A stretch of DNA of 64,000 bases from a virus. The notes beneath the pieces are model-generated. The model did not search any database and was not told the DNA's origin. It worked only from the letters and a program-made list of their open reading frames with translations. Position numbers and translations under genes: made by a program. Location of the stretch: IMG/VR virus record IMGVR_UViG_3300020162_001876, positions 46,999 to 110,998 of that record. One strand, written 5' to 3'. Shown piece by piece: positions 4,314 through 56,169 of the stretch. Every line of letters starts with the position of its first letter. The stretch's first letter is position 1.

Positions 4314-5171
4314 ATGGCTAATATAAAGCATAACAAATATAAAAACACTGGAATATTATTCGAATTGCTGGTAAGAAAAATTACAGCAGATACTATGTCT
4401 AGTCATGATTCTAAAGCTGTATCTTTAATTAAAAAGTATTTTGTTAATACTGAATTAGCTAAGGAAAATAAGCTTTACCAATCTATATCTAAATCACAAA
4501 ACATTAGTGAGGCTCAAGCAGAGTCGATTCTTTCAACCATTTTGGAGGTAAGTAAATCCTTAGATAAAACACAATTATCTAAGGAAAAATACAATTTGAT
4601 TAAAGAAATTAAATCAAATTTTGATATTGATGACTTTTTTAAGGCTAAGATTAATAATTATAAATTATTATCTTCAACATATACATTATTAGAGGCCAAT
4701 ATATCTCCTACTAAAAATTTAGAGGATATTCTTAGTTCTAAAATGAATATCCTAGAACATATAGCTCAAATTAATAATATAAACTCACCACTACCTTCTG
4801 TAAGTGAATTTGAAACTTTAGATAAAGGAACTCGTGCGTTAGTTTATAAAATAATGTTAGAAAAATTTAATAATAGATTTAATACTTTATCTAATGATCA
4901 AAAAGATGTATTAAAAGAATATATTAATCATATTTCTAATACTACTAATTTAAAAAAATATGTAGATTCTAAATTTACATTATTAAAAGAATCTCTTTTA
5001 AAATTTCTGCCTAAAATAGAAGATACTACTATTAAAATCAAAGTAAATGAGACAATAAATCTTATTAACCCTATTTTAGAATCTAAAACTCTAAAAGACG
5101 ATAATATAGTTACATTATTACAGTATCAAGAATTATATAGTGAATTAATAAAAATTCATAATGAACAATAA
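4314..5171 (+). CDS. Conserved head-region protein of unknown function
   Basis: A 285-residue, Lys/Asn/Ile-rich, mostly helical protein. Its N-terminus (KYKNTGILFELLVRKITAD) resembles hypothetical proteins I recall next to the portal gene in marine and Bacteroidota T4-like phages; no function is known to me. No membrane segment or catalytic motif is visible. It lies between portal and prohead protease and overlaps the next gene by 11 nt, so the two are probably translationally coupled and serve head assembly. Confidence 0.8.
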   Translation: MANIKHNKYKNTGILFELLVRKITADTMSSHDSKAVSLIKKYFVNTELAKENKLYQSISKSQNISEAQAESILSTILEVSKSLDKTQLSKEKYNLIKEIKSNFDIDDFFKAKINNYKLLSSTYTLLEANISPTKNLEDILSSKMNILEHIAQINNINSPLPSVSEFETLDKGTRALVYKIMLEKFNNRFNTLSNDQKDVLKEYINHISNTTNLKKYVDSKFTLLKESLLKFLPKIEDTTIKIKVNETINLINPILESKTLKDDNIVTLLQYQELYSELIKIHNEQ

Positions 5172-5832
5172 TTTAAAAGAACTAGTATTAAAACATTTAG
5201 CTGAACTTCTAGATGAAGAATCAGCTTCCAGTGGTGCTGGTGGATATTTAACTAAAGCTTTTGTTAGAAAACCAACTAATCAAGACAAAAATTCACCTAC
5301 AGGGTTTGAAAAAATGCCTAAATCTGGTGATGTTTATAAAAAAATGGGATTTAGAATTATTAAGCCTAATGAAAGAATTGATGCTAAAGATTTATGGAAG
5401 GGACAACATTTAGAAGAAAAAATGGGATACCCTACTCCTAAAGCTTTTAGAAAAATTAAAAAACAACATGAAATTTCTAAATCGGGGCATGAAGATTTAC
5501 CTAACCCTGATAAATACTTTGAACTAGTGAAATTTAAAATAGTTGAACCTGAAAAAGAAAAAAAAGAACCAATTAATGAAGTTCGTTACTCTCAATTTAA
5601 AAATGAAACTAGGACTAGAAAACCTCAAGAGCAATTACATATAGGAATTAAAAAAATTCAACATACTTTAGACGAAGTAAATAAATTAGTTGAGTTTGCT
5701 ACTAGAATGAAAACAGAATTAAAAGGTGATGCCGAACAAATGAATTACTTAAAACGTACTCATAATGCATTAATTAAAATCAATGAAAAAATACAATCAA
5801 TTAACGAAAAAATTAAAGGTTTAACAGAATAA
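5161..5832 (+). CDS. Unknown head-region protein with helical N-terminal leader
   Basis: A 223-residue protein that I do not recognise. The first 20 residues form an amphipathic helix (LKELVLKHLAELLDEES) followed by a Gly/Ser hinge (ASSGAGGY); the unrelated gene at 37090 has the same arrangement (see findings). The middle is basic and Pro-rich, and the C-terminal 70 residues are a predicted coiled coil. It overlaps the upstream gene by 11 nt, and its TAATG stop/start overlaps the small gene at 5832. Confidence 0.8.
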   Translation: MNNNLKELVLKHLAELLDEESASSGAGGYLTKAFVRKPTNQDKNSPTGFEKMPKSGDVYKKMGFRIIKPNERIDAKDLWKGQHLEEKMGYPTPKAFRKIKKQHEISKSGHEDLPNPDKYFELVKFKIVEPEKEKKEPINEVRYSQFKNETRTRKPQEQLHIGIKKIQHTLDEVNKLVEFATRMKTELKGDAEQMNYLKRTHNALIKINEKIQSINEKIKGLTE

Positions 5833-5981
5833 TGGCAGCCGTAAAATCAAAATCAAGTTCTACACCAACTAAAATAGATAAACCTAAAAGAAAAAGACCT
5901 GGTGTTCATTCTAAATCTAAAACTTCTAAGTTAAAAGGTTCTAAGAATTATAAAAAATTATATAGAGGACAAGGACTTTAA
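5832..5981 (+). CDS. Very basic 49-residue protein
   Basis: A short gene starting in the TAATG overlap with the upstream stop. The product is extremely rich in Lys, Arg and Ser (KPKRKRPGVHSKSKTSKLKG) and ends in KNYKKLYRGQGL, with almost no acidic residues. Similar tiny basic proteins sit at this place in related phages as far as I recall. Composition and location in the head operon suggest a nucleic-acid-binding or capsid-internal protein; that is inference. Confidence 0.75.
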   Translation: MAAVKSKSSSTPTKIDKPKRKRPGVHSKSKTSKLKGSKNYKKLYRGQGL

Positions 5982-5982
5982 A

Positions 5983-5992
5983 AATATTTATA
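5983..5992 (+). promoter_or_regulatory. Late-type motif directly at the start of the next gene
   Basis: AATATTTATA ends 3 nt before the ATG at 5996, far closer than at other late genes. If it works as a promoter the message would be leaderless. Confidence 0.4.
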
Positions 5993-5995
5993 CCC

Positions 5996-7282
5996 ATGAC
6001 AGTACAAAATTTATACACGCAATACTTAGATGGTAAGGTAACCAAACAAAAATTTCTTTATGAAGTACGTAGAGATCAAAATCTTACTATGATATCTCCC
6101 AGCAATTCATTTGAAGATGTTGTTAAGATATTAAAAAATAAATCTATTATATCAGAAAAAGCTCATAAAGAAGCTAAACAATCTACTGGAAAGCAAGAAG
6201 TTGATATTATATCTAAAACTATTGATATGGTTAACCCATATGAGTATGCTAATGGTATGGATTATGAATTAGGAATTATAGATGTTCCTGTAACTGAGGG
6301 GGATTTAGATGAAGAAAATGTACTTAAAGTACAGAAAAAAGTATTAGCTAATCTTACTAAAAATCCTTCATATTATACTGAAAAATTGTATGGTAGAGTT
6401 AAATTCGATGGTGATAAAACTATTGAAATTAACAAAAAATCAATGGATGCTATTGGTAAAGGTAAAAATGCTAAAATAATCAGAGAAGGATTAGGAGACA
6501 AACAATACTTTGATGCTCTCCGCAATTCAGATGCAAATAGTATAGAATCTGCTAAAAAAGTTTTAAAAAGAAAATTTAAAGATTTAGGTGATAAGAATAT
6601 AGAATATTTAGCTAAAGAATGGGCTAAAAGAGCATTAGATGAACATGGGCAATATGCTGATAAAGTAGCTGATGTAAACCCACTTTCACAAAATGAATTA
6701 AAAGAAAATTACACTCCATTTTCTATAAATGAAGAACAAGAAGCCGTACTCCAAAGATATGCTGAAGCTACAGGTATACCATTAGACAATTTAAAAAATA
6801 TGGTTGCTGAAGCTAGAGCAAAGAAAGCTAAAAAAGATTATGATGGAGATGGAACAATAGAATTACCTGAAGAAGAATATATGGGGTCTCGTAATAAATC
6901 TATTAAACAATCTATGGCAGAAGATATAGATTTAGGTCATCAAGATAATGAACCTCGTATGATTAAAGGTGAATTATATCAAATAGCTAAACAAGCTACT
7001 GAATTGTACAAAATGATTGATTCCGTAGATAATATGGGAGAAATTGATTTTCCTCATTGGTGGCAGGCAAAAATTGTTTTAGCTAAAAATTATTTAACTG
7101 GAGCTAAAGATTATTTGGATAGTGCTTTAACAGTAGGTAATGAAGAAGGAGAAATGGATGAAGCAGTTGCTTTAAAAGATAAAGCAGGTAATACTCAATA
7201 TGCTAAAGATTCAACTGAAGCTTCAAATATAGAAAGAGCAGCTCGAACTAAAGGTGTAATCTTAACTAAAATGAATGTATAA
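5996..7282 (+). CDS. Prohead-region protein, possible core component
   Basis: A 428-residue protein lying between the portal group and the prohead protease. Its N-terminal segment (GKVTKQKFLYEVRRDQNL followed by SFEDVVKILKNKSII) is a block I recall from Bacteroidota T4-like phages. Around residues 280-292 it carries an EF-hand-like loop DYDGDGTIELPEE. The sequence is highly charged with many Glu and Lys. By position it may be a prohead core component like T4 gp67/68, but no similarity proves this. Its stop and the protease start share one base. Confidence 0.8.
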   Translation: MTVQNLYTQYLDGKVTKQKFLYEVRRDQNLTMISPSNSFEDVVKILKNKSIISEKAHKEAKQSTGKQEVDIISKTIDMVNPYEYANGMDYELGIIDVPVTEGDLDEENVLKVQKKVLANLTKNPSYYTEKLYGRVKFDGDKTIEINKKSMDAIGKGKNAKIIREGLGDKQYFDALRNSDANSIESAKKVLKRKFKDLGDKNIEYLAKEWAKRALDEHGQYADKVADVNPLSQNELKENYTPFSINEEQEAVLQRYAEATGIPLDNLKNMVAEARAKKAKKDYDGDGTIELPEEEYMGSRNKSIKQSMAEDIDLGHQDNEPRMIKGELYQIAKQATELYKMIDSVDNMGEIDFPHWWQAKIVLAKNYLTGAKDYLDSALTVGNEEGEMDEAVALKDKAGNTQYAKDSTEASNIERAARTKGVILTKMNV

Positions 7283-7899
7283 TGAGTAAATCATTATTAA
7301 TAGAATACGCCTTATTTACACCTAAATCAACAGTATTAACTGAAGGTAAAGGTGATAGAAACTTAGTAGTTCAAGGTGTTATTCAAAGAGCAGATGCTAA
7401 AAACCAAAACGGTAGAATTTACCCTAAAGATATTTTAGCACGTGAAGTTGAAAAATACATTGAAGGGCCTGTATCTGAAAACAGAGCATTAGGTGAATTA
7501 GATCACCCAGAATCAATGGTAATTAATTTAAAAAACGTATCTCATAACATCAAACAATTATGGTGGGATGGAGATGATTTAATGGGTAAAGTAGAAGTAT
7601 TACCAACACCTTCAGGTAACATCTTAAAAGAATTATTCTTAAATAAAATTACAGTAGGTATTTCTTCCCGCGGTATGGGTTCAGTTCAACCATTAGGAGA
7701 AGGTACAGTTGAAGTACAAGACGATTTCGAACTATTATGTTGGGATTTTGTTTCTACACCATCAACACAAGGGGCTTTTATGACTCCAACAGGATTAAGC
7801 GAAGGATATAAACCACAACATACAAGCAAATACTCAAAAATTAACTCACTAGTATCAGACATTATCTGTTCTCAATCAGGTATATGTTGTATTAGATAA
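7282..7899 (+). CDS. 21: Prohead core protease (T4 gp21-like)
   Basis: Serine protease of the assemblin/gp21 type that matures the prohead by cleaving scaffold, capsid and internal proteins. Visible motifs: the N-terminal strand VQGVIQRADAKNQNGRIYP, catalytic His75 in ELDHPES and the nucleophile in GISSRGMG (Ser128 or Ser129). Length (205 residues) fits the family. It is followed by a small gene, the scaffold and the major capsid gene, which is the T4 order. Confidence 0.92.
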   Translation: MSKSLLIEYALFTPKSTVLTEGKGDRNLVVQGVIQRADAKNQNGRIYPKDILAREVEKYIEGPVSENRALGELDHPESMVINLKNVSHNIKQLWWDGDDLMGKVEVLPTPSGNILKELFLNKITVGISSRGMGSVQPLGEGTVEVQDDFELLCWDFVSTPSTQGAFMTPTGLSEGYKPQHTSKYSKINSLVSDIICSQSGICCIR

Positions 7900-7916
7900 C
7901 CTTAAAAAAAATAAAC

Positions 7917-8159
7917 ATGGAAAACTTTAACTTTAAAAAATATCTTTCTGAAAGTAAATTATTAAAAGAGGATTTACAAAGCGACTTATTGTTAGCTAAT
8001 GATGGACCTTTAGGAACATTTGGAGTAATACAGAGAGCTATAGAAATGGCAGCTAGTAATAAAGTATCAACAGAAGAGTTATCAAACGCACTATATGAAG
8101 CCCTAACTGAAATAGGAGCTCTCACAGATGTAGAGATCCCGTCAACAGAATTCCGATAG
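7917..8159 (+). CDS. Small prohead protein with capsid-targeting-like N-terminus
   Basis: An 80-residue protein between protease and scaffold. Its N-terminus (MENFNFKKYLSESKLLKED) resembles in pattern the T4 internal-protein targeting peptide (MKTYQEFIAEA): aromatic/basic residues, then a Leu-x-Glu site suitable for gp21-type cleavage. The rest is helical and acidic. I infer an internal or core protein of the prohead; the related leader at 49374 supports a shared signal. A strong terminator follows. Confidence 0.75.
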   Translation: MENFNFKKYLSESKLLKEDLQSDLLLANDGPLGTFGVIQRAIEMAASNKVSTEELSNALYEALTEIGALTDVEIPSTEFR

Positions 8160-25993: not shown

Positions 25994-26015
25994 TTAAGAA
26001 AAATAAAAAGAAAAG

Positions 26016-26043
26016 AGCTCACATTTATTTGTGAGCTTTTTTT
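26016..26043 (+). terminator. Rho-independent terminator after the tail tube gene
   Basis: AGCTCACA/TGTGAGCT 8-bp stem with a 6-nt loop and a T run. Confidence 0.9.
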
Positions 26044-26050
26044 ATTTTAC

Positions 26051-26066
26051 TATATTTATATATAAA
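26051..26066 (+). promoter_or_regulatory. Late-type promoter motif
   Basis: TATATTTATATATAAA, 14 nt before the gp26-like gene. Confidence 0.55.
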
Positions 26067-26080: not shown

Positions 26081-26827
26081 ATGGAAAACCAAGTTACAAA
26101 ACCAAAATTCCCTACAGAAATTGTAGAACTTCCTTCAAAGGGTCTTTTATATGATAAAGATAATCCTCTTTCAAGTGGTCAAATTGAAATGAAATATATG
26201 ACTGCTAGAGAAGAAGATATTTTAACTAACTCAAATTATATCCAACAAGGTATTGTTTTAGATAAATTATTAGAATCACTTATTGTTTCTAAAGTAGATT
26301 TAAAAGATATTATTATTGGAGATAAAAACGCAATTTTAATTGCTTCTCGTATCTTGGGATATGGGCAAGAATATGAGTTTGAATCTGGAGGTAAACATTA
26401 TAAAGTAGATTTAACAACTTTAAAAGATAAAGAATTACCTAAAGATGTAGACTATACTAAAAGTAATCAATTTTATTATACCTTACCAGCATCAGGTGTT
26501 GAAGTAGGTTATAAAATTTTAACTCATGGTGATGAATTAGCTATAGAAGCTGAATTAAAAGGATTAAAGAAAATTTATCCTAATGGTGGTTTACCTGAAG
26601 TTTCTACTCGTTTAAAATATATTGTTAATACTATTAATGGAAATACTGATAGAAAAGTAGTTAGAGAATTTATTGATAATGAATTATTAGCTAGAGACGC
26701 AAGATCATTACGTCAAGAAATCAAAAGAGTATCACCAGATATTGATTTAACTATTCAAGGTGATGGCGGGGAGGACATCACAGTACCTATTAGTCTTAAC
26801 TTTTTTTGGCCTGACTACGAGTTATAG
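26081..26827 (+). CDS. T4 gp26-like baseplate hub/tail assembly protein, frame-0 product
   Basis: A 248-residue protein of the T4_baseplate (gp26) type by its N-terminal block VELPSKGLLYDKDNPLSSG followed by IEMKYMTAREEDILTNSN. It sits between tail tube and tape measure, where other long-tailed phages keep the G/GT assembly chaperones. The frame-0 end is LNFFWPDYEL. A run of seven T at 26801-26807, read TTT TTT TGG, lies 18 nt before the stop codon, and the +1/-2 frame continues into conserved-looking sequence, so a longer product is likely (see the next entry and findings). Confidence 0.85.
   Translation: MENQVTKPKFPTEIVELPSKGLLYDKDNPLSSGQIEMKYMTAREEDILTNSNYIQQGIVLDKLLESLIVSKVDLKDIIIGDKNAILIASRILGYGQEYEFESGGKHYKVDLTTLKDKELPKDVDYTKSNQFYYTLPASGVEVGYKILTHGDELAIEAELKGLKKIYPNGGLPEVSTRLKYIVNTINGNTDRKVVREFIDNELLARDARSLRQEIKRVSPDIDLTIQGDGGEDITVPISLNFFWPDYEL
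26801..26807 (+). promoter_or_regulatory. Probable programmed frameshift site (T7 run)
   Basis: Seven T in frame as TTT TTT TGG. Slipping +1 (or -2) joins residue Phe242 of the gp26-like protein to the overlapping frame GLTTSYRINLFSQMNEIV. The mechanism and efficiency cannot be judged from sequence alone. Confidence 0.55.
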
Positions 26828-27080
26828 AATAAATTTATTTTCTCAAATGAATGAAATAGTATTTCATGGTAAAGGAGGGTATACTTGGGATACAGTTTAT
26901 AATTGGCCTATTTGGCTTCGAAATTTTACCTTTAAAAAATTAAAAGAATGGTATGATAAAGAACAAGCACAAGCCGAAGCCCAAAATAATCAATTAACAA
27001 ATAATAATGTAGCTGAAGTAGCTAGACCTAATATTCTTCCAACAAGTACATATAATGCAACAGTGCCTACCAAAAAGTAG
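26808..27080 (+). CDS. Frameshifted extension (gp51/GT-like C-terminal part)
   Basis: This frame encodes GLTTSYRINLFSQMNEIVFH, then GKGGYTWDTVYNWPIWLRNF and a Lys/Gln/Ala-rich tail. The hydrophobic part upstream of the first usable ATG (26847) belongs to the conserved-looking block, which argues that it is made by frameshifting from the gp26-like gene (giving about 332 residues) and not started on its own. If it starts at 26847 it would be a 77-residue protein. The stop codon lies inside the terminator hairpin. Confidence 0.65.
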   Translation, partial: GLTTSYRINLFSQMNEIVFHGKGGYTWDTVYNWPIWLRNFTFKKLKEWYDKEQAQAEAQNNQLTNNNVAEVARPNILPTSTYNATVPTKK

Positions 27081-27089
27081 GCACTTTTT
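27062..27089 (+). terminator. Terminator, left copy of the pair around the kinase-like gene
   Basis: AGTGCCTAC/GTAGGCACT 9-bp stem, loop CAAAAA, then T5. The left arm and the stop codon of the frameshifted reading frame overlap it. Confidence 0.9.
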
Positions 27090-27097
27090 ATCTATTC

Positions 27098-27112
27098 AAT
27101 ATTTATATTAAA
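27098..27112 (+). promoter_or_regulatory. Late-type promoter motif before the kinase-like gene
   Basis: AATATTTATATTAAA, 9 nt before ATG 27122; together with the preceding terminator it is nearly repeated at 27850-27889. Confidence 0.55.
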
Positions 27113-27121
27113 ATTAAAATA

Positions 27122-27823
27122 ATGATATATTTAAAAGAAATAATTAAAGAAATTCTTATACAAGAGTTTACTCAAACTGATTTTAATAAAGCAAAAACCT
27201 GGGATGAAATTGTAAACTTATTTTCTCAATATAAAAGAGATTTAACCCCTTTTACTAAATATAAAGAAGAACATTCATTTTTAGGAAGCGGAAAAAACGG
27301 AAAAGTATTTAAAATAGAAAACTCAGATAAAGTTATTAAAATTACTAAAAATATATATGATATTTATATAGCTGATGATTTATTAGGAACCTCATATAAA
27401 CATTTACCTAAAATTTATAACGTAGTTGGATATGAAGAAGGAGTAAAAAACCCTTATTCTAAAAGAAGCAAATACGCAGGTGTTATAGTAATGGAATATT
27501 TAAATGAACTTCCAAAAGACTTATTCAAATTATTTTTAATGATGTTCCCTAATTATAATAAAAAAGGATTTTGGATGACAGATTTTTTAGATGGTATTTT
27601 AGATAGTAATGAAATAGGACAGTTATTAATAGAACTAGACCCTACAATTGAATCTACTATTAAAAAATATGATTTTTTAAATCAATTAGAAGGAATAAAA
27701 AATGATTTAAATCAAGCATTTGATTTAGAAGAAATAAGTGACCAACTAGACCCAACTCCAGGTAATTTCTTAATGAGAGGAAATACAATAGTATTTACTG
27801 ATATAGTACAATCTGATAATTAA
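27122..27823 (+). CDS. Protein-kinase-like protein, inserted cassette
   Basis: A 233-residue protein with a reduced protein-kinase-like pattern: Gly-rich loop LGSGKNGKVFKI (residues 54-65), a possible ATP-binding Lys in VIKI (Lys73), a hinge-like VIVMEYLNELP (122-131), and near the end PTPGNFLMRGNTIVFTDIV, which mimics the catalytic-loop Asn and the DFG Asp (Asn215, Asp227). The HRD motif is not recognisable (only Asp210-Pro-Thr), so it could be an inactive relative or a kinase-fold phosphotransferase. The N-terminus (MIYLKEIIKEILIQEF) resembles the helical leaders of other possible virion proteins here. It is flanked by two near-identical terminator/promoter units. Confidence 0.75.
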   Translation: MIYLKEIIKEILIQEFTQTDFNKAKTWDEIVNLFSQYKRDLTPFTKYKEEHSFLGSGKNGKVFKIENSDKVIKITKNIYDIYIADDLLGTSYKHLPKIYNVVGYEEGVKNPYSKRSKYAGVIVMEYLNELPKDLFKLFLMMFPNYNKKGFWMTDFLDGILDSNEIGQLLIELDPTIESTIKKYDFLNQLEGIKNDLNQAFDLEEISDQLDPTPGNFLMRGNTIVFTDIVQSDN

Positions 27824-27849
27824 AATTTAATTTTATTTTAATATAATAA

Positions 27850-27873
27850 TGCCTACTAAAAAGTAGGCACTTT
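27850..27873 (+). terminator. Terminator, right copy
   Basis: TGCCTACT/AGTAGGCA 8-bp stem, loop AAAA, then TTT-C-T; the stem and A-loop are almost identical to the terminator at 27062-27089. Confidence 0.8.
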
Positions 27874-27874
27874 C

Positions 27875-27884
27875 TATATTTATA
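27875..27884 (+). promoter_or_regulatory. Late-type promoter motif before the tape measure gene
   Basis: TATATTTATA, 17 nt before ATG 27902. Confidence 0.5.
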
Positions 27885-27901
27885 CTATATACTAAGTTAT
27901 T

Positions 27902-30253
27902 ATGGCTACAACACCTAATCAAAATTCACTAGAACAAGACTTAATTGACTTATTAAATCGTCGTAGGGGAATTGAAGAAGCAAGTCTAGATGATGCTAGG
28001 GATTTGGCTAATATTTTACAATCTCAAACTAAAGAAATTAAATTTCAAATAATAGAAAGAAATCAACTTCGTTCTATAGGGAGAGATATAGTTAAAATAT
28101 CAACAGAAGCCTATACTATTCAAGATAAAGAATTAGGTACTACTAAAAGTTTAACAGATTTAGCTAAACAAAGACAAGCTTTAGAAAAAAATATTTTACT
28201 TTTATCTTCTTTAAAAAACAAAAATTACTCCAGTGACGCTAAAATCAACCAGGATATAAAAAATTCCATCCAGGAACAAATTGAAGTCGCTATTAAGTTA
28301 AAACAAGAAATAGAAGGTATTGAAAAACTTTCTGAAAGTATATATAATAATTTTGGAGTTAAAACCTTTGGAGCTCTATCAGATATAGCAAAAGCTATAC
28401 CTGGATTAAAAAGATTCTCAGAACCCTTTAATGCCGCAGCGGAAGCCTCAAGAAAAGCAGCAGTTCTTAGTAAAGAATATATTAAAAATGAAAATTTAAA
28501 ATTAGCGGCAGCTACTAAAGGTAATGGATTAGATAGAGATAGAATTAAGCAATTAGGTTTAGAAAATGAATTACTAGATCGTAATGGCAATGCTATTCAA
28601 GGATCCGCAGCTGCCATGAAAGCCCAAGCGTTAATAAATAAAGATTTAGCTAAACCCCAAAATTCCTTTTTAGCTGGTGTTAAATCATTAGGTCCTGCTC
28701 TAACCAAAGCGTTTGGGCCTATGTTTATATTACTTGAAGTCTTTAATGCTTTTAAAGGGATAGATAAAGCTATAGGTGATACTGCTAAACAATTAGGTAT
28801 TTCTTATGAATCATCTGCTAAATTAAGTAGAGAATTTAACTCTATAGCTAATAATAGTAATAATGTATTTGTTACTACTAAAGGGCTACATGAGTCATTT
28901 AATCAAATAAATGCTGCTTTAGGCACTAACTCAGTTTTAAATGAAGAATTATTATTAACTCAAACTGAACTTACCAAACAAGCTGGTTATAGTGTTGAAG
29001 CTGCTACTCAAATTTCTAAATTATCTTTAGCTACAGGAAAGCCTGCTAAAGAAATCACTACAGCTTTTTTAGGACAAGCTAAAGCTTTAAATTTAACTAA
29101 CAAAACTGCTATTAATGAAAAATCATTATTAGAAAGTATAGCTAAAACTTCAAAAGCCACTTTAATTACATTTGCCGCTCAACCTGGTAAATTAGCTGAA
29201 GCGGCATATGAAGCTAAAAGGGTAGGATTAGAATTAGAGTCAATAAAAGGAATACAAGATTCATTACTTAATATTGAATCCTCAATTGCCTCTGAATTTG
29301 AAGCAGAAGTAATAACTGGTAAACAATTAAATTTAGAAAGAGCAAGATATTATGCTTTAACTAATAATATAGCAGGAGTAGCAAAAGAATTAGGAAATCA
29401 AGGTATTGACCAAAATAGATTTGCTAAAATGAACCTTCTACAACAAGAATCTATAGCTAAAGCTATGGGTATGAGTAGAGATCAAATGGCAGAAATGTTA
29501 ATGGATCAAACTGCTATGAGTAGATTATCACAAGTTGATGGAAATACTGCTAAAGAAAAATTTGATAACTTAGTAAAACAAGTTGGGTTAGAAGAAGCTA
29601 AAAAACAATTAGGAGATGAAACTTTAGCCCAACAAATGGCATCTGCTTCTATCCAAGACAGATTCTTAGCATCTGTTGAAAAATTAAAAGAAGTATTTGT
29701 AACTTTAGCTGAACCTTTAATACCTGTAGTAAGTGCATTTGCAAACGCTTTTGCTTACCTAGCAAAAATGCCAGGATTATTAACTACTATATCAGTTTTA
29801 TTAGCTGGAATGGCAGCACGAAGTATAGCTACAGCTATAGCTAGTATATTCACTAGTAGCGCTATGTTAGGTCCTATAGGAATAGCTGCAGGAATAGCAG
29901 GATCTATAGGAATGATGGCTATGATAGCAAAAAGTGAATCAGCGGTTCCTGTAGGAGATATCAATTCCCCAGCTAGTGGCAAAACTCAGGTTTCTACTAA
30001 AGAAGGAGGATTATTTAATTTAAGTGAAAATGATGATTTAGTAGCATTTCCAGGAGCATCTCAAATGATGAGACAACCCAAAACTGTAGTGGTTAATAAT
30101 TCTCAATCTCCTATGATTGATTATGAAAAATTGGGAATGCATGTTGCTAAAGCTGTAACAGCTAATCCCATCCAAGCTGTAGCTAATATAGATGGAGTTA
30201 GTATAACAAGGGAAATGCAAACCCCAATGGGAATAACTACACGCAAAATATAA
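27902..30253 (+). CDS. Tape measure protein
   Basis: A 783-residue protein that probably sets tail length and occupies the tube lumen. The N-terminal 350 residues are mostly charged coiled coil, followed by Ala/Leu-rich helices. Residues about 620-700 hold several hydrophobic segments (FVTLAEPLIPVVSAFANAFA, then GLLTTISVLLAGMAARSIA, then GIAAGIAGSIGMMAMIA). The end (TQVSTKEGGLFNLSENDDLV) is a C-terminal block I recall from tape measure proteins of Bacteroidota T4-like phages. The position after tube and chaperone-like genes fits. T4 gp29 is shorter (590), so a longer tail is expected. Confidence 0.8.
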   Translation: MATTPNQNSLEQDLIDLLNRRRGIEEASLDDARDLANILQSQTKEIKFQIIERNQLRSIGRDIVKISTEAYTIQDKELGTTKSLTDLAKQRQALEKNILLLSSLKNKNYSSDAKINQDIKNSIQEQIEVAIKLKQEIEGIEKLSESIYNNFGVKTFGALSDIAKAIPGLKRFSEPFNAAAEASRKAAVLSKEYIKNENLKLAAATKGNGLDRDRIKQLGLENELLDRNGNAIQGSAAAMKAQALINKDLAKPQNSFLAGVKSLGPALTKAFGPMFILLEVFNAFKGIDKAIGDTAKQLGISYESSAKLSREFNSIANNSNNVFVTTKGLHESFNQINAALGTNSVLNEELLLTQTELTKQAGYSVEAATQISKLSLATGKPAKEITTAFLGQAKALNLTNKTAINEKSLLESIAKTSKATLITFAAQPGKLAEAAYEAKRVGLELESIKGIQDSLLNIESSIASEFEAEVITGKQLNLERARYYALTNNIAGVAKELGNQGIDQNRFAKMNLLQQESIAKAMGMSRDQMAEMLMDQTAMSRLSQVDGNTAKEKFDNLVKQVGLEEAKKQLGDETLAQQMASASIQDRFLASVEKLKEVFVTLAEPLIPVVSAFANAFAYLAKMPGLLTTISVLLAGMAARSIATAIASIFTSSAMLGPIGIAAGIAGSIGMMAMIAKSESAVPVGDINSPASGKTQVSTKEGGLFNLSENDDLVAFPGASQMMRQPKTVVVNNSQSPMIDYEKLGMHVAKAVTANPIQAVANIDGVSITREMQTPMGITTRKI

Positions 30254-32903: not shown

Positions 32904-35447
32904 ATGGCCGATTTAGATTACACTAATATCGCAGGTTCACCCTTTCAACCTTATGTTGCTACTCAAATAGAGAAACGTAAAGCTTTAGTTAATAAAGACT
33001 ATAGAAGTTCATCTGAACTAAATTGGTTATCTAATAAAAATGTTTGGATTAGAGTAAGTTCTGGAGCTAATGTTAAATATGGTAACATGGGTTATCAAGG
33101 ATTACAAGGAGACGAATTATCTAAAAAATACATCCTGCAAGGAGGATTATTAAATCATCTCCCAGGAGCGGACATCTACTCATTACGTTCAGGAATAGGC
33201 CCTGATGGAGCTTATGGTATAGGTGGAACTGATTTTGGTTTGACTCCTATGCCAGGTATGACTAACATTTCTATTAAAACTGGTGGTAAATTAGGTACTT
33301 TAAAAGAAACAACTATTGACTTTGTATGCCATAATATGGAGCAACTTAATATAATGGAAGCTCTATATATGAAATTAGGTTTTGGTTTATTAGTAGAATG
33401 GGGGCATACTTATTATATTGATAATAAAACTGAAAAAATAGAAAATGTTCCTCAACCCCTTCCTTTTTATGGCATTCATACCAAAGAAGAACTAATGGGA
33501 GCTATTACAACTCATAGAAAATTGCATAGTGGTAATTATGATGCTTCTTGGGGTACTATTAAAAATTTCACTTATTCTTTATCTAAAAACGGTACATTTA
33601 ATTGCCAAGTCCAATTAGTAGGAGCAGGAGACATTTTAGAATCCTTAAAAGTTAACATATCAGGAGATTATTCAGGTAGTGCTCCTACAGATAATGAATT
33701 ATCAGGTTCAATATATCCAGTAGTTTCAGATTTTAATAAATCATTATTAAATAAAGCTTTATATAAAATATATTCTAAAGATGTAATTAATGCTCCTGAT
33801 GATACTAGTGGTTTAGAAAAACTAGCTAATAAAGCAGCTGATTTTTTATTTGGAGATAATATAGTAAGGGATAACTATACTATAGAAACTAATATTAATT
33901 ATCTAAATTATATTCAACCTTTTTATTCTAATATAAATCTTAATTTATTAAATTGGGGTAATAATACAGAATTACAAAGAAAAGGATATCATTATAGATT
34001 AGTTAATGAGCCCGGTGTATCTACTAATTATGATGGAGATATAGATACTAAAGTACCAGCTATTACAGTTTCTAATTATTTCGCTCGATTAGTGATGGAT
34101 TACGAATTATCAGGAGAAGAAGAAGCTAATACTACAGATATTACTAAACCAGGTTTAGCTCAAGTGTATATAACTTTAGGTAATTTATTACTATTAATAA
34201 AATCTACAGGAATGTTATATCAAAGAAATGACGGGGAAGGGTCAGATAAACAACGTCCTTACATCTATATAGATGTAAACCCAGATACTAATAGATGTTT
34301 TACTTTCCAAGGACATTGCTCTTTAGATCCTTCAATATGTTTAATAGGTTCAGATACTTTACCATTTGGAATAACTTCTCAAGTATTTTATGATATAAGA
34401 GCTAATTTTCCTTGGCATAATGATAATTCAAATTTGGGTGGTAGATTTATGTGGACTTTAGTAAATGTAGATTGGGTAGCTAGTTTAATAAAAAAATGGA
34501 GAGCAAATGATAAAAAAGGAAATGTTTATTTTGTAGATTTAGTTAAAGATATTTTAGATGGAATTTCTAAAGCTACTGGGGGATATAATGAATTTAGAAT
34601 TGTACCTGATGATGATTCAAGATGTGTAAGAATACTAGATGATAGAAGAATGATAAATCCTGGGGCAACTATTCCTGATAATTATTATACTGAAATACCT
34701 ATATTAGGTAAAAGAAGTATAGTTTATGATTTTAATTATACTTCTAAAATTGCACCTAATACTGCTGCTATGATTGTAGTAGCTGCCCAAGCACAACCTT
34801 ATGGAGTTCAAGGAACCGAAAACGCCTTAGCTTTTTCTCATTTAAATAAAGGATTATATAATAGATTAGATACAGTAGTAGTAGATTCGGGGACTGAAAG
34901 TAATAAAAATACTAATCCTAATAGTAATGTTATTGAAAGATATGTTGAATTAAGAGATTTTATAAAAGAAATTTACAGCGGGGAAGGAGGAGTTAACGCC
35001 ATATCTGATCCTAATGAAGCTAATAAAATATTAGAACAAAACGAAGCATCAGGTTCAGTAAATTCAGCTTTAGTAAAAGAAGCATTACCTACAGCCTTAA
35101 AAACTCTTTACTTTGAATTAGTAGCTGAAGCTACAAAAATTGACTCTAATTTTGCAAATACTGAAGAAGCAGTGGCTTTACAAAACTCATATAATGATGC
35201 TCTTAAATGGTTGCAAAATTCTAAAGCAGAAGATTTAGTAGATAGATTAGAATCCTATAAAATCCTATCAGAGTCTACTAAAAAATATAGATATTTAGTA
35301 GCCGATATAATATCAGGTCCTGGTTCAGTAGTAGGAAGTTATCCTACTAGATTTTATAAATCTCCTAATACTTTAGATAGTGATATAGAAAGTGCTTGGG
35401 AAGCATATATTGATAAAATATTTGTAAATTCTAAATCTAATTTCTAA
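32904..35447 (+). CDS. Probable baseplate hub protein
   Basis: An 847-residue protein with alternating beta-rich and helical parts. The block LKETTIDFVCHNMEQLNIME, then YMKLGFGLLVEWGHTYYID, and the later IIKKWRAND-like part are familiar from large baseplate proteins in Bacteroidota T4-like phages. The next gene (1-nt overlap) begins with a segment that in hub proteins usually follows directly, so the hub may be split over two genes here. No enzymatic motif is visible. Confidence 0.65.
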   Translation: MADLDYTNIAGSPFQPYVATQIEKRKALVNKDYRSSSELNWLSNKNVWIRVSSGANVKYGNMGYQGLQGDELSKKYILQGGLLNHLPGADIYSLRSGIGPDGAYGIGGTDFGLTPMPGMTNISIKTGGKLGTLKETTIDFVCHNMEQLNIMEALYMKLGFGLLVEWGHTYYIDNKTEKIENVPQPLPFYGIHTKEELMGAITTHRKLHSGNYDASWGTIKNFTYSLSKNGTFNCQVQLVGAGDILESLKVNISGDYSGSAPTDNELSGSIYPVVSDFNKSLLNKALYKIYSKDVINAPDDTSGLEKLANKAADFLFGDNIVRDNYTIETNINYLNYIQPFYSNINLNLLNWGNNTELQRKGYHYRLVNEPGVSTNYDGDIDTKVPAITVSNYFARLVMDYELSGEEEANTTDITKPGLAQVYITLGNLLLLIKSTGMLYQRNDGEGSDKQRPYIYIDVNPDTNRCFTFQGHCSLDPSICLIGSDTLPFGITSQVFYDIRANFPWHNDNSNLGGRFMWTLVNVDWVASLIKKWRANDKKGNVYFVDLVKDILDGISKATGGYNEFRIVPDDDSRCVRILDDRRMINPGATIPDNYYTEIPILGKRSIVYDFNYTSKIAPNTAAMIVVAAQAQPYGVQGTENALAFSHLNKGLYNRLDTVVVDSGTESNKNTNPNSNVIERYVELRDFIKEIYSGEGGVNAISDPNEANKILEQNEASGSVNSALVKEALPTALKTLYFELVAEATKIDSNFANTEEAVALQNSYNDALKWLQNSKAEDLVDRLESYKILSESTKKYRYLVADIISGPGSVVGSYPTRFYKSPNTLDSDIESAWEAYIDKIFVNSKSNF

Positions 35448-36421
35448 TGGCTTTAATTTTAGATCTCGGAAAAACAGATTCATGTTTAAATACTTATAGA
35501 GAAGTATTCTCTGATCCTTATAAATCAGGAGATGATAACTCCTTCAATGCTGGGGTTATATTACCTTTAGATTTTAGTTTAGAAATGGATGGATTAAGTG
35601 GAATAATCCCTCATTCGGCCTTTGTAATCCCTTCAAATTCATTACCACAATCATATCTAATCCAATCAGGTTCTGAAGCTGGTAAACAAAAAATTGCTTT
35701 TATTCTTCATACAATAGATCAAAATTTTAATAATAATAAATGGACAACTAAAATTACAGGACAAACTCTTAATATTAGATTTGAACCACTAACTGAAGAA
35801 GAAAAGGCAGCTATTAAAAAAGCTCAAGAAGCTAATAAAGAACCAAGTTTATCAGATTATGGAAGTGCTGGAAATCAAACTTCTAGTAAAAATAAACAGG
35901 TAGCTTATGATAAAATGGAAGCTACATTCCCTGGATTTAAAACTAAATTAAAACAAGTAGCAGCTAATATAGGAGTGACAGAAGATATCTTAACTACAGT
36001 AATGTACAAAGAATCGGGTATAAGAACCAATATCAGAAATAGTATAGGGTGTGTAGGATTAATTCAATTTTGTCCTGATAAAGGAGGAGGAATTACTAAA
36101 ACTATAAGTGGTAAAACTTATAATCTATCATTTGTTCAAAATATGAATGGTTTAGATCAATTAGATGTAGTTGAAAGATACTTTAAAGCTTTAGGTTTTA
36201 ATAGTAGTAAAAATTCTAATGCTGGTGAGTTATATGGAGCTACTTTTTATCCTATTTCTAAAGGAAAACCTCAAAATTGGATTATGGGTAGTGAAAAAAG
36301 TGCAGAGTATGCTATCAAAGTAGCCACTCAAAATCCTGGCATAACTAAATTTAGTACTGCTAGATTAAATGGTCAAACTGTAATTGATAAAGCAGCATTT
36401 GAGAAATATGTTTATTCTTAA
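35447..36421 (+). CDS. Hub C-terminal segment fused to lytic transglycosylase (tail lysozyme)
   Basis: A 324-residue protein in two parts. Residues 1-112 are a beta segment (VILPLDFSLEMDGLSGIIPH, then NNKWTTKITGQTL) typical of the end of baseplate hub proteins. Residues 150-320 resemble a soluble lytic transglycosylase: the catalytic Glu is Glu189 in VMYKESGIR, and GCVGLIQF (201-208) corresponds to the GLMQ motif. A charged linker joins them. It should cut peptidoglycan during DNA injection, as T4 gp5 does with a different lysozyme fold. The GGG/Cys pattern near residue 209 is a local variation. Confidence 0.8.
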   Translation: MALILDLGKTDSCLNTYREVFSDPYKSGDDNSFNAGVILPLDFSLEMDGLSGIIPHSAFVIPSNSLPQSYLIQSGSEAGKQKIAFILHTIDQNFNNNKWTTKITGQTLNIRFEPLTEEEKAAIKKAQEANKEPSLSDYGSAGNQTSSKNKQVAYDKMEATFPGFKTKLKQVAANIGVTEDILTTVMYKESGIRTNIRNSIGCVGLIQFCPDKGGGITKTISGKTYNLSFVQNMNGLDQLDVVERYFKALGFNSSKNSNAGELYGATFYPISKGKPQNWIMGSEKSAEYAIKVATQNPGITKFSTARLNGQTVIDKAAFEKYVYS

Positions 36422-37089: not shown

Positions 37090-37782
37090 ATGTCTCATAT
37101 CAAATTGCAAGATCTTCTTAATGAAATCGATTGGATAATTAACTCTAAAACAGCCTCTAGTGGAGGAGGTGGTAAAAGATTTATCCCTACAGAAGGAAAA
37201 GTTCCTAGTAAAGTATTTACAAGTTTACCTGACCATTTTAAATTAAGAGGAAGTAGAGTATTAATATCTCCTGATGCTATTATTGCTATAAATTCTATCC
37301 AAAGAGGTAGAGGTGGGGCGACTAATTATAAAGAATTAGTAGGCAAAATCCAACAAGCTTTTGCTGTAAAAAGAGAAAAAGCAGACCTTAATATAGGACC
37401 CGCAGATACTACTAGTGATTTATCTACTTTTAAAAAAGGATTAATAGGTAGACTAGACTCAGCTGTTATAAATGGTAAAGAATTTAAAGTATGGAATGGA
37501 GAAGGTAAAGCTAAAGAAGATGGTAGTTTTATATTTCCATTAAGTCAATTTAAAACTTCTTCCTTACAAGAAAATGAAGAAGGTCTTACTTCACAACTAT
37601 ATACCCTTATTAGTAATGAAATGAGATTAGGTAAAAGAGCAAATATGACTGGGGCATCCCATCATATAGAAGAACATGAAAAAGCAGAAAAAGCAGTTGA
37701 AAATTTTCTTAGAATGAACCCATCTATGGAAGAACAACGAGATAGAATTGAAGATCATTTTTATAAACAACTATTTAAATAA
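37090..37782 (+). CDS. Unknown virion-type protein with helical leader and Gly hinge
   Basis: A 230-residue protein. It starts with an amphipathic helix (IKLQDLLNEIDWII) followed by TASSGGGGKRF; the gene at 5161 has the same helix-then-ASSGxGG arrangement. The C-terminal 60 residues are a charged helix with HHIEEHEKAEKAVENFL. Expected from a late promoter and possibly packaged in the head; no enzyme motif identified. Confidence 0.75.
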   Translation: MSHIKLQDLLNEIDWIINSKTASSGGGGKRFIPTEGKVPSKVFTSLPDHFKLRGSRVLISPDAIIAINSIQRGRGGATNYKELVGKIQQAFAVKREKADLNIGPADTTSDLSTFKKGLIGRLDSAVINGKEFKVWNGEGKAKEDGSFIFPLSQFKTSSLQENEEGLTSQLYTLISNEMRLGKRANMTGASHHIEEHEKAEKAVENFLRMNPSMEEQRDRIEDHFYKQLFK

Positions 37783-39194: not shown

Positions 39195-39662
39195 ATGATT
39201 AATACACAGGTTATAGATCCTTCATATATTTATTTCAAATACGACATTGATGTCACATGCCCTGATTTAAAAGATATGAATAAATTATTTTGCACATTTT
39301 CTAGCAAAAATGACTTAGAGGAAACTCTTTCAAAAATACAATCTCAATACAAAATTTTATTTAGTAAAATATTTGTACTATACATAGAATCTACTGAGGA
39401 ATATGTTTGTACTTATAATATAGATCATAATAATATGACTAATAACTTATTATATAATACTATTTTATTACATAGAAAGAAAGAAAGTAATACTCTTTAT
39501 ACTATTAATGCTTTAAATGATTTGATTAAATCATTAAATGGTGGTGTGTTAGATAATAGTTTTATGATTAATTGGAGAGATTATCAAAATAGTATATTAC
39601 TTACTCATACAGGAGCATTGAAAAAACTTGATACTAAGATTTACAAAATAATCACTTTATAA
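39195..39662 (+). CDS. Unknown protein in the replication cluster
   Basis: A 155-residue protein 9 nt after the polymerase gene. The C-terminal block (LYTINALNDLIKSLNGGVLD, then NWRDYQNSILLT) is one I recall from unannotated genes next to replication genes in T4-like phages. A mixed alpha/beta fold is likely; no catalytic signature. A translation or transcription regulator is conceivable by position only. Confidence 0.75.
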   Translation: MINTQVIDPSYIYFKYDIDVTCPDLKDMNKLFCTFSSKNDLEETLSKIQSQYKILFSKIFVLYIESTEEYVCTYNIDHNNMTNNLLYNTILLHRKKESNTLYTINALNDLIKSLNGGVLDNSFMINWRDYQNSILLTHTGALKKLDTKIYKIITL

Positions 39663-39740: not shown

Positions 39741-40568
39741 ATGAATTTAGACTTGATTCAAAACAAGCTTAATGAATTGTCTGCACCTAAAGGGGGAGGA
39801 CAAAAAACAAACGATAAAGCACTTAGCTTTTGGAAACCACCTGTTGGGAAAGCCTTAGTAAGGTTTGTACCTTCAAAATTTAATCCTGAAAATCCATTTA
39901 GAGAATTATACTTCCATTATGGTATAGGGAAAAGAACAATTATTTCACCTTCAAACTTTGGTGAAAAAGATCCAATTATTGAATTTGCAAAAGAGCTTCG
40001 CAAAACTAAAGAACCTGAAAACTGGAAATTAGCTAAAAAACTTGAACCTAAAATGAGAGTTTTTGCCCCTGTTATTGTTAGAGGTGAAGAAGAAAAAGGA
40101 GTTCGTTTATGGGAATTTGGTAAAGAAATTTACCAATCATTATTATCACTAGCAGCTGATGAGGATATCGGAGATTTCACAGATGTGATGGAAGGTAGAG
40201 ATATGAAAGTTGAAACAGTAGGTCCTGAAACTACAGGAACTGATTATAATAAATCTCGTATTATGCCTGCTCTTAAAACTTCACCATTATGTAATGACAA
40301 TAGTGAATTAACTAAATGGTTAGAAACTCAACCAGATCCAACTTCATTCTCTAAAAAGTATACTTTTGATGAGATTAAACAATTTTTAGCTGAATGGTTA
40401 AATCCTGAAGAAGAAACTAAAGAAGAAGGAAGTATTATAGATGGTCCTGCTACAGATTTCGAACCATCTACTCCAGTAGAATCTAAATTTGAATTAGATA
40501 CTAAACCAAAAGCTAAAAGGGAAATTCCAACAGCAGATGAGTTTGAGGATTTATTTAACGAAGACTAA
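39741..40568 (+). CDS. 32: Single-stranded DNA-binding protein (T4 gp32-like)
   Basis: A 275-residue gp32-type protein. The N-terminal basic part (LSFWKPPVGKALVRFVPSKF) and the core with RELYFHYGI and MRVFAPVIVRGEEEKGVRLW match the family. The long acidic C-terminal tail (ADEFEDLFNED) is the protein-interaction arm. The Cys/His zinc ligands of T4 gp32 are missing (only one Cys), as in several distant relatives. It heads the recombination/replication operon ssb-uvsX-exonuclease-helicase. Confidence 0.93.
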   Translation: MNLDLIQNKLNELSAPKGGGQKTNDKALSFWKPPVGKALVRFVPSKFNPENPFRELYFHYGIGKRTIISPSNFGEKDPIIEFAKELRKTKEPENWKLAKKLEPKMRVFAPVIVRGEEEKGVRLWEFGKEIYQSLLSLAADEDIGDFTDVMEGRDMKVETVGPETTGTDYNKSRIMPALKTSPLCNDNSELTKWLETQPDPTSFSKKYTFDEIKQFLAEWLNPEEETKEEGSIIDGPATDFEPSTPVESKFELDTKPKAKREIPTADEFEDLFNED

Positions 40569-49373: not shown

Positions 49374-49964
49374 ATGGATAACTTTGATATAAAAAAATAT
49401 CTAATTGAAAATCAACTAACAACTAATTCACAGCAGTTAAATGAAATAAATTGGAAAGGATTAGCCGCTGGGGCTGCTATGACGTTGGGTACGTTAGGCG
49501 CGCAAGGACAAACAACAGAACCAACTGCACAAACATCAACAACTCAAACAACACAACAAAAATCAATGTTCGGTACACCAGAACAAAGAGCTGCTGCTAA
49601 GGCTAAAAGAGAAGCTCAACGTAAAAAGAATTTTGATATTTCTGTAAATAATGCTTATGGAATGGGATTTGTTGAAGATATTGAAGAAGAAGAATTTAAT
49701 ACTGGTTGTAATATAGCCAATAATCAAGAATTAAAATATTTAGATAGTTCATCACCTGAATTCCCTAATTTCGTATATAGAGAAATGGAAGATGGTACCA
49801 AAGTTAAGATTAATATGAAAAAATATCTTAATTATATTAGAAAACAAAATAAACAAGCTGATGTACCTTTAGATGGGTTACAAGGACCTAACTTTAAATC
49901 AACAAAATGTGGTGTTTCAAAGGATGCTGCTAAACAATCTAAAAGTGATTGGGGAAAAAAATAA
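49374..49964 (+). CDS. Unknown protein with capsid-targeting-like leader
   Basis: A 196-residue protein. The N-terminus MDNFDIKKYLIENQLTTNSQ closely parallels that of the prohead-region protein at 7917 (MENFNFKKYLSESKLL). Residues 30-50 contain a short Gly/Ala-rich segment (WKGLAAGAAMTLGTLGAQG), followed by a Gln/Thr-rich stretch and a charged C-terminal domain with a pair of Cys. It may be an internal virion protein delivered with DNA; inferred from the leader only. Confidence 0.75.
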   Translation: MDNFDIKKYLIENQLTTNSQQLNEINWKGLAAGAAMTLGTLGAQGQTTEPTAQTSTTQTTQQKSMFGTPEQRAAAKAKREAQRKKNFDISVNNAYGMGFVEDIEEEEFNTGCNIANNQELKYLDSSSPEFPNFVYREMEDGTKVKINMKKYLNYIRKQNKQADVPLDGLQGPNFKSTKCGVSKDAAKQSKSDWGKK

Positions 49965-55149: not shown

Positions 55150-55234
55150 GGAGGTGTGGACAGTTGGTTGTTAAGCGGTCTTGAAAATCGTCGCCCGTGC
55201 ATTCGGGTTGCAGGTTCGAATCCTGTCGCCTCCG
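55150..55234 (+). tRNA. tRNA-Ser(TGA)
   Basis: Class II. Acceptor GGAGGTG/CGCCTCC, anticodon loop CTTGAAA, long variable arm GCCCGTGCATTCGGGT, T arm with TTCGAAT, discriminator G. First gene of array 1. No encoded CCA. Confidence 0.88.
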
Positions 55235-55240
55235 CAATAT

Positions 55241-55312
55241 TGGCTCATAGTGTAACGGTTAGCACAAAACACTTTGACTGTTTTAGTCCAAGTTCGAATC
55301 TTGGTGAGCCAA
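55241..55312 (+). tRNA. tRNA-Gln(TTG)
   Basis: Acceptor TGGCTCA/TGAGCCA, anticodon stem AAACA/TGTTT with loop CTTTGAC, T loop TCGAATC region, discriminator A. Confidence 0.9.
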
Positions 55313-55321
55313 CAACAATTT

Positions 55322-55392
55322 CTAGTAGCGAAGCCCGGTTTCATGCCTCACTTGGACTGAGGAGTACGCAGGTTCGAATCCTGCCTATTAGA
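55322..55392 (+). tRNA. tRNA-Pro(TGG)
   Basis: Acceptor CTAGTAG/CTATTAG, anticodon stem CCTCA/TGAGG with loop CTTGGAC, T arm GCAGG/CCTGC. The D arm is poorly formed. Confidence 0.8.
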
Positions 55393-55398
55393 CGAAAG

Positions 55399-55454
55399 GA
55401 GACTGTTACTAATTTATTGGACCTCATAGTGGGGGGAATCGTAGAATTAGATTT
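55399..55454 (+). repeat. tRNA-spacer repeat, copy 1
   Basis: Starts with GAGACTGTTACTAATT and ends with CGTAGAATTAGATTT, directly before tRNA-Lys. CTAATT and AATTAG inside can pair. A second copy is at 55535-55596. Confidence 0.75.
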
Positions 55455-55455
55455 T

Positions 55456-55528
55456 GCCTTCGAAGCTCATGTGGACGGGCACTCCGCTTTTAACGGAGGG
55501 GTAGATGGTTCGAGGCCATCCGGGGGTA
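55456..55528 (+). tRNA. tRNA-Lys(TTT)
   Basis: Acceptor GCCTTCG/CGGGGGT (several G-T pairs), D stem GCTC/GGGC, anticodon stem CTCCG/CGGAG with loop CTTTTAA, T arm GATGG/CCATC, discriminator A. Confidence 0.85.
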
Positions 55529-55534
55529 CGAGAA

Positions 55535-55596
55535 GAGACTGTTACTAATTCATAGAAGACCACGCGAGTAAGTCCTCGAAGCGTAGAATTAGATTT
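55535..55596 (+). repeat. tRNA-spacer repeat, copy 2
   Basis: Same 16-nt start and same 15-nt end as copy 1 (55399-55454) with a different middle; directly before tRNA-Val. Confidence 0.75.
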
Positions 55597-55667
55597 GCCT
55601 CGTTGGCGTAATGGTAGCGTATTTGTTTTACATGCAAATGGCAGTGGTTCGATTCCACTACGAGGTA
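55597..55667 (+). tRNA. tRNA-Val(TAC)
   Basis: Acceptor GCCTCGT/ACGAGGT, anticodon loop TTTACAT in stem TTTGT/GCAAA, T arm AGTGG/CCACT, discriminator A. Confidence 0.85.
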
Positions 55668-55696
55668 CAAAAATGGGGATGATAGGCGATATCTAG

Positions 55697-55749
55697 CGGC
55701 AATTGGGTATCTGGGTTCATAGCCATACTATGAAATGTTAGTTTTGCCG
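55697..55749 (+). ncRNA. Structured spacer element
   Basis: CGGCAA (55697-55702) pairs with TTGCCG (55744-55749), enclosing a perfect hairpin TTCATAG/CTATGAA with loop CCATA (55716-55734). Perhaps a tRNA remnant; no anticodon arm seen. Confidence 0.4.
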
Positions 55750-55767
55750 AATTAATAGAGTAGTAGT

Positions 55768-55839
55768 TTCGTTAATAGTGTAGCGGAAACACGCCAGCTG
55801 TGAAAGCTGGAGGGTAGGGTTCGAGACCCGTTAATGAGC
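55768..55839 (+). tRNA. tRNA, probably His(GTG), atypical
   Basis: Acceptor TTCGTTA/TAATGAG, D stem GTGT/ACAC, anticodon stem CCAGC/GCTGG whose loop TGTGAAA contains GTG one place off the normal register, T stem with only three good pairs, and C as discriminator (typical of His). A regular tRNA-His is at 56680. Confidence 0.5.
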
Positions 55840-55845
55840 AAAATT

Positions 55846-55927
55846 GGGTAGCAAAAGTCGTTCGGATACGGCAGCGAGACTGTAAATCTCGTCCTTATAG
55901 GGAGTGGTTCGAGTCCACTGTTACCCA
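55846..55927 (+). tRNA. tRNA-Tyr(GTA)
   Basis: Class II. Acceptor GGGTAGC/GTTACCC, anticodon stem CGAGA/TCTCG with loop CTGTAAA, T arm AGTGG/CCACT, discriminator A. Confidence 0.9.
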
Positions 55928-55940
55928 CTGTATTAACTTG

Positions 55941-56013
55941 GGGCCTTTTGTATAGCTGGTGCGTACGCTAGTCTGAAGAACTAGAGGAACAGGTTCGATT
56001 CCTGTAGGGCCCA
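55941..56013 (+). tRNA. tRNA-Phe(GAA)
   Basis: Acceptor GGGCCTT/AGGGCCC, anticodon stem CTAGT/ACTAG with loop CTGAAGA, T arm ACAGG/CCTGT, discriminator A. Confidence 0.92.
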
Positions 56014-56019
56014 CGAAGA

Positions 56020-56099: not shown

Positions 56100-56169
56100 A
56101 TCCTTAGCTCAGAGGCAGAGCGGTTGTTTGTTAGGCAACGGGTCGAGATTTCGAAATTCTCAGGATCCT
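56098..56169 (+). tRNA. tRNA-Asn(GTT), copy 1
   Basis: Acceptor GGATCCT/AGGATCC, D stem GCTC/GAGC, anticodon stem GTTGT/GCAAC with loop TTGTTAG, T arm GAGAT/TTCTC. Discriminator T is unusual for Asn. Confidence 0.8.

Follow-up and report, generated by a model that had tools for sequence, protein, structure and literature searches.

In T4-type phages, genes are shuffled by way of PeSL (promoter-early stem-loop) cassettes, which, in the outline given by the citing source, are stem-loop terminator and promoter units that flank accessory or shuffled genes and mediate the shuffling (Arbiol 2010, Comeau 2014, cited in PMC4503421). T4 recombines at microhomologies of 6-10 bp, and its internal proteins oppose host defences: IPI inhibits GmrSD, and IPIII is required on one E. 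coli strain (PMC9391042). The first ten residues of IPIII are enough for capsid targeting. Experiments on the T4 capsid-targeting sequence (CTS) assigned residues 4 and 7 to targeting and residues 8 and 10 to processing, and gp21 cleaves after L/I-x-E (PMC9026906). Kinase domains of polyvalent proteins are phage-borne, including stand-alone versions in Bacteroidetes; they have lost the C-terminal subdomain and kept the active-site residues, and their injection has been proposed (Iyer 2017, PMC5512222). Promoter/stem-loop cassette shuffling, CTS-tagged internal proteins and truncated phage kinases are thus all known already, while, as far as could be searched, their joint occurrence appears to be new, with a minimal kinase behind an exchangeable CTS-like leader in cassettes that have a late-type promoter.

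The stretch of DNA analysed here (the window) comprises 64,000 nucleotides, positions 46,999 to 110,998 of the 110,998-base IMG/VR virus record IMGVR_UViG_3300020162_001876. Among isolates, the nearest one found was Flavobacterium phage immuto (NC_055915), whose MCP is 56% identical. Its hub and tape-measure genes stand in the same order with the site between them empty, and it too has several genes with CTS-like leaders, among them gp076, gp077, gp092 and gp095. The window also holds a cluster of 24 tRNA genes (55150-59612). Between its hub and tape-measure genes lies the gene of a 233-residue kinase-like protein, enclosed by two units of hairpin and promoter element (Table 1). We read the whole as a mobile cargo cassette of a T4-like phage, acquired by recombination, whose kinase-like enzyme would be packaged and injected by means of a CTS-like leader, and we hold this reading to be reasonably probable.

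Table 1. Features of the locus and of the prohead protease gene, in window coordinates.
Feature	Position	Strand	Basis
Gp21-like prohead protease, would cut the leader	7282..7899	+	57% to immuto protease; 34% to T4 gp21, E 4e-24
Hub/tail-chaperone gene, left neighbour	26081..26827	+	PHROG 150 'baseplate hub', E 3e-6; neighbour kept in all relatives
Second frame of left neighbour, entered at T7 run	26801..27080	+	Frame and T-run conserved, 23 sequences
Left terminator hairpin AGTGCCTACCAAAAAGTAGGCACT + TTTTTAT	27062..27085	+	Repeat scan, folding, terminator scoring; same hairpin at relatives' empty site
ATATTTATA, probable late-type promoter element of kinase-like gene	27099..27107	+	Motif strand bias; placement 15-60 nt upstream of ORFs
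Compact kinase-like protein, 233 aa	27122..27823	+	ORF; alignment, profile comparison, structure model and Foldseek
Leader codons 1-15 (MIYLKEIIKEILIQE), CTS-like, [LI]xE at residues 8-10 and 13-15	27122..27166	+	Site-variable; end Glu invariant, 41 sequences
Gly-loop GSGKNG, residues 55-60	27284..27301	+	G57, N59 invariant in 41 sequences
K73, VIK-type ATP-binding lysine	27338..27340	+	Invariant in 41-sequence alignment
Catalytic loop D210-PTPG-N215 (HRDLKPEN equivalent without H, R)	27749..27766	+	D210, N215 invariant, 41 sequences
D227, metal-binding (DFG-type) Asp, six residues before protein end	27800..27802	+	Invariant, 41 sequences
Right terminator hairpin, repeat copy 2	27850..27869	+	Repeat scan, folding, terminator scoring
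ATATTTATA, putative promoter element of tape-measure gene	27876..27884	+	Motif search; relatives' empty-site comparison
Tape-measure gene, right neighbour	27902..30253	+	tblastn to annotated tape measure of Flavobacterium phage immuto, E 5e-26

The window protein itself gave nothing meaningful against Pfam, PHROGs, PADLOC or PDB sequences, and matches to Cas9-WED, calmodulin and S100 were taken as chance. By tblastn against named phages it had no relative, nor did the wide family described below at E < 0.01, and a scan of bacterial and archaeal genomes returned none. Searching with a degenerate DNA pattern for FLGxGxNGxV[FY] led to a wider family of about 180 aa, at 75 loci, which matches the close family by hhalign (probability 95.7, E 9e-9); stand-alone members measure 178-238 aa. 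Eleven columns are invariant in the joint alignment of 41 sequences, namely E15 (the Glu that ends the leader), G57, N59, K73, A84, F185, L189, D210, N215, V224 and D227. With this alignment, AlphaFold2 gave a model of pLDDT 79.5 and pTM 0.75; an earlier model from six similar sequences (pLDDT 41.6) was discarded. Searched with Foldseek against the PDB, the model matched protein kinases and aminoglycoside phosphotransferases (APH; best E 2.8e-4, probability 0.9-1.0), with TM-scores to solved kinases that are low, at 0.3-0.4. Against viral models, the hits comprised phage kinases and a large number of short, uncharacterised proteins of phages. A kinase-like fold is therefore supported by the invariant catalytic residues, the profile comparison and the structure search of a predicted model, and the expectation of the earlier note that the structure would prove kinase-like was borne out. 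The same note had listed kinase motifs "but no HRD". The His and Arg are indeed absent (LDPTPGN), and the Gly-loop, Lys, Asn and Asp are invariant, but the catalytic Asp, D210, is present five residues ahead of N215.

By eye, the order of the motifs (Gly-loop, VIK, D-x4-N, then Asp) resembles that of the T7 gp0.7 protein kinase. Profile comparison was not significant (probability 3.6%), and gp0.7 was rejected as a homologue and kept as a functional likeness only. T7 gp0.7 is an early gene with a long C-terminal part, unlike the window gene. The likeness to the kinase domains of polyvalent proteins lies in the lost C-terminal subdomain and the kept active site. However, among the matches listed, none of the 41 members hit a Pfam kinase family at E up to 1, and because no Pfam kinase model recognises the window family, it is not placed among those kinases. 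Moreover, it has no His before the catalytic Asp, stands alone and carries a CTS-like leader. The chain stops six residues past the DFG-like Asp, so that the C-lobe beyond D227 is missing; with the incomplete C-lobe and no HRD His or Arg, this is not a canonical protein kinase.

These same absences would fit a pseudokinase or ATP-binding scaffold, packaged or not, that keeps the kinase fold and no longer transfers phosphate. So would immuto gp093, a divergent, leader-bearing family relative of 146 aa (tblastn E 5e-4; HMM E 6e-8 when scaled to 130 ORFs). It is smaller, and its gene belongs to a cluster that precedes the primase gene; the catalytic Asp is apparently missing, with Ser at that position. 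Nevertheless, we regard a loss of catalysis as rather improbable in the window family: the Lys, catalytic Asp, Asn and metal Asp are invariant in 41 divergent sequences, which is unexpected after lost catalysis, and truncated phage kinases with intact active-site residues are on record (PMC5512222). Alignment and model together point instead to a compact protein-kinase-like enzyme, presumably active, that keeps its ATP-binding and catalytic residues.

Close relatives of this protein (68-82% identity) were found on five IMG/VR contigs (L003-L007), none of which carries the gene at the window site. On L003 and L004 it lies between a homologue of window 39195-39662 and another gene that bears a leader, itself followed by a homologue of window 39741-40568 (probably gp32-like), while on L005-L007 it is located between MCP and PhoH. 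A pattern search for PGNFLMRG returned these five known loci and nothing further. Judged from sequence, then, the kinase-like gene is mobile, with three sites known in all. L003 also has a tandem duplication (L003:1424-3392) of a gene homologous to window 35447-36421, the starts of the two copies being near-identical.

The comparison between sites also reveals how the protein is put together. DNA identity is 57-65% over the first 15-20 codons and 74-83% over the body, with the switch at ...E|FT, and on L003 the leader of the kinase-like gene matches that of the next, unrelated gene at 50/57 nt. On this evidence the leader is exchangeable, the same body standing behind three different leaders. 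Its spacing is that of the T4 CTS, with hydrophobic residues at -6, -3 and -2 and Glu at 0, and is identical to that of IPII and IPIII; the T4 leader MKTYQEFIAE, MIYLKEIIKE of the window, MIRLKxLLxE of the wide family and MENSFNLKKFLAE of L003 all have it in common. Of 137 ORFs here, 13 have the pattern within their first 13 residues, where the background is 1.8% (p 2e-6). In a T4 control it picked 14/233 ORFs, including IPII, IPIII, Alt and gp24, and only four of the 14 are known gp21 substrates. The control overturned the expectation of a highly specific pattern: its specificity is moderate, and it is informative, not specific. As in T4 IPI-IPIII and Alt (PMC9026906, PMC9391042), leader spacing and [LI]xE go together with a gp21-like protease, and variable bodies follow similar leaders. 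The difference is that the body here is kinase-like, that the same body carries three different leaders, and that packaging is predicted.

Further genes with CTS-like leaders lie at L090:11905-18524 (G000:C1:31905-38524) and at window 7917-8159, 37090-37782 and 49374-49964. They are partly clustered, have bodies without clear family matches and are candidates for packaged proteins. On L109, L138, L144 and L150 (about 5001-8000), the gene after the wide-family kinase is often a large and variable one of 605-781 aa whose leader is similar, and this suggests that a second cargo island precedes the endonuclease and primase genes.

Leader spacing and the gp21-like protease together lead us to infer a packaged, injected effector. 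A late gene within the tail operon could also act during assembly. The protein might be a mobile, late-expressed moron product that stays unpackaged, uses its N-terminal helix for docking or dimerisation and acts in the producing cell, for example in assembly or against competing phages. The late-type promoter and the position among tail genes fit this, as does a leader pattern that is unspecific for packaged proteins. It is harder to explain in this way why the leader is swapped as a unit at ...E|FT and is common to unrelated neighbours, as on L003, and why the CTS spacing is kept and its Glu invariant in 41 sequences; we therefore think it rather improbable and prefer packaging.

How the gene came to its present site can be read from the relatives. 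The hub gene retrieved 80, of which 37 were examined and 33 had a hub gene traceable to the tape measure. The kinase-like gene is absent from the site in 31 of these 33 (some of them near-duplicates), where the hub/chaperone genes are followed by a single intergenic unit and then the tape measure. Even in the closest relatives, L008-L013, with 96-97% identical hub proteins, the site is empty, which makes a gain in the window lineage the simpler reading. The empty site of L014 reads CAACAGTGCCTACTAAAAAGTAGGCACTTTTTATATTTATACTATATACTAAGTTATTATGGCTACA, essentially the sequence expected once the repeat is collapsed: the left flank of the window aligns to it as far as the hairpin's end, the alignment of the right flank begins where the hairpin starts, and the two flanks overlap by 25 nt. 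The stop codon (TAG) of the second frame of the hub gene sits within the left hairpin, which marks the left copy as the ancestral target. Within that gene (26081-27080), the T-run at 26801-26807 lies in an almost invariant CTTTTTTTGGCCTGA, followed by a conserved +1 (or -2) frame in 23 sequences. In-frame stops stand right before the T-run in L014, L015, L017 and L018, and an ATG after it is often absent. A programmed frameshift is probable here; its product would be a fused chaperone of the G/GT type, encoded immediately before the tape measure.

The remaining two of the 33 relatives, L034 (6575-7228) and L035 (4438-5390), have different leader-bearing genes at the hub/tape-measure site. Both encode a 218-aa protein starting MILLKTFLKEIILKEFDK, whose body matches two PHROGs of unknown function, and L035 additionally encodes a 69-aa protein starting MDHFNLKKFLKESKLIKED. 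The 218-aa gene of L035 is flanked by its own terminator/promoter repeat (69 aligned columns with few differences). With different cargo inside a different repeat, L035 presents the arrangement proposed for the window a second time. The hub/tape-measure junction is thus an insertion hot spot; the kinase-like gene itself was seen there in one genome only.

The flanking units of the window gene are unusual in their likeness. Across the 110,998 bases of the record, the hairpin TGCCTAC(C/T)AAAAAGTAGGCA is present in exactly two copies, one on each side of the ORF, namely TGCCTACCAAAAAGTAGGCA (27064-27083) and TGCCTACTAAAAAGTAGGCA (27850-27869). Exact matches to TGCCTACYAAAAAGTAGGCA likewise number two, and these are still the sole two in the window at 3 mismatches (shuffles expect 0.01). 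The left hairpin folds at -14.4 kcal/mol (z -5.1) and scores as a standard intrinsic terminator; the right one folds at -11.6 kcal/mol (z -3.8) and has a poorer T tail, CTTTCT. The element ATATTTATA follows 15 nt past the left and 6 nt past the right hairpin. The window has 18 copies of it where 7 are expected, all on the plus strand, and the whole record (G000) has 31 on the plus and 3 on the minus strand. An ORF starts 15-60 nt downstream of 21 of those 31, the background being 5.6%, and by this placement the element behaves as a promoter element would. It is the reverse complement of the T4-late-promoter-like TATAAATAT, that is, read in the opposite direction. Sigma-70-like sites in the region are at chance level (103 vs 107.6), so that single such sites mean little, and the element shared by the units is ATATTTATA.

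Terminator hairpins followed by ATATTTATA are common between the genes of this genome, with another example at 26010-26060. What sets the two flanking units apart is therefore that they are nearly identical, rather than that they are there at all. The two near-identical copies that the earlier note had described on either side of the gene were confirmed, and the hairpin pair is unique in window and record. When 1217 distant pairs from this and related contigs were compared in 80-nt windows, the pair ranked among the top 0.25%. The sole higher score belongs to the pair around the same gene in L005, TTTTTCATATTTATCAACAAAC[A/T]AAAGTTTATGA, with 33/34 nt identical. On L003, a 13-nt copy of the 3' end of the preceding gene flanks the two-gene insert; this repeat is weak alone and inexact in L004. 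A repeat scan over all loci retrieved gave no further strong case; de-duplication had hidden L035 from it, and that locus was examined directly.

That the flanking units are alike through reuse of one good terminator, by convergence or independent origin, would suit the window-type hairpin at the empty site of many relatives, evidently a favoured terminator there, but is very unlikely given that the hairpin has no copy elsewhere in 111 kb, that unit pairs are so seldom this alike, and that L005 (same gene, other site) and L035 (other cargo) are bracketed by different, site-specific repeats. Insertion by recombination of a block of gene, terminator and promoter between the hub/tail-chaperone and tape-measure genes, as the earlier note had suggested, is supported by the sequence comparison, with the empty sites, the other cargo of L034 and L035 and the two other loci of L003-L007 all in its favour. 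The presence/absence pattern in related phages agrees: 31 of 33 are without the block, the reverse of a gene found in all relatives with unrelated flanks.

We propose the following course of events. First, recombination at the terminator/promoter unit would have brought the gene in, leaving the unit in two copies. The gene would then be expressed late from its own late-type promoter, and the leader, most likely like the T4 CTS, would dock the protein on the prohead core, where a gp21-like protease would cut the leader after [LI]-x-E. The enzyme would travel in the head and enter the host together with the DNA; early in infection it would phosphorylate proteins of the host, perhaps to counter defence. 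Since T4 internal proteins counter host defences, its likeliest purpose is to act against defence or to modify the host.

With PeSL cassettes, as the source cited above outlines them, the locus shares the terminator and promoter units that flank the moving gene; the difference is that the promoter here would be the late-type ATATTTATA in head and tail operons and that the moving genes bear a CTS-like leader. More tentatively, late-promoter/terminator units and CTS leaders might together form a swap system for injected effectors, both acting as recombination ports, by which one body, the minimal kinase, is placed in several head and tail operon sites, takes the local leader and is loaded into the head. 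If this were true, a protein kinase would be a T4-type internal protein and would join the set of proteins brought into the cell by T4-like phages. The three sites and the empty site would show how cargo moves and gains a packaging tag, and the sequence rule (hydrophobic -6, -3 and -2, Glu 0) could shortlist packaged proteins in uncultured T4-like phages.
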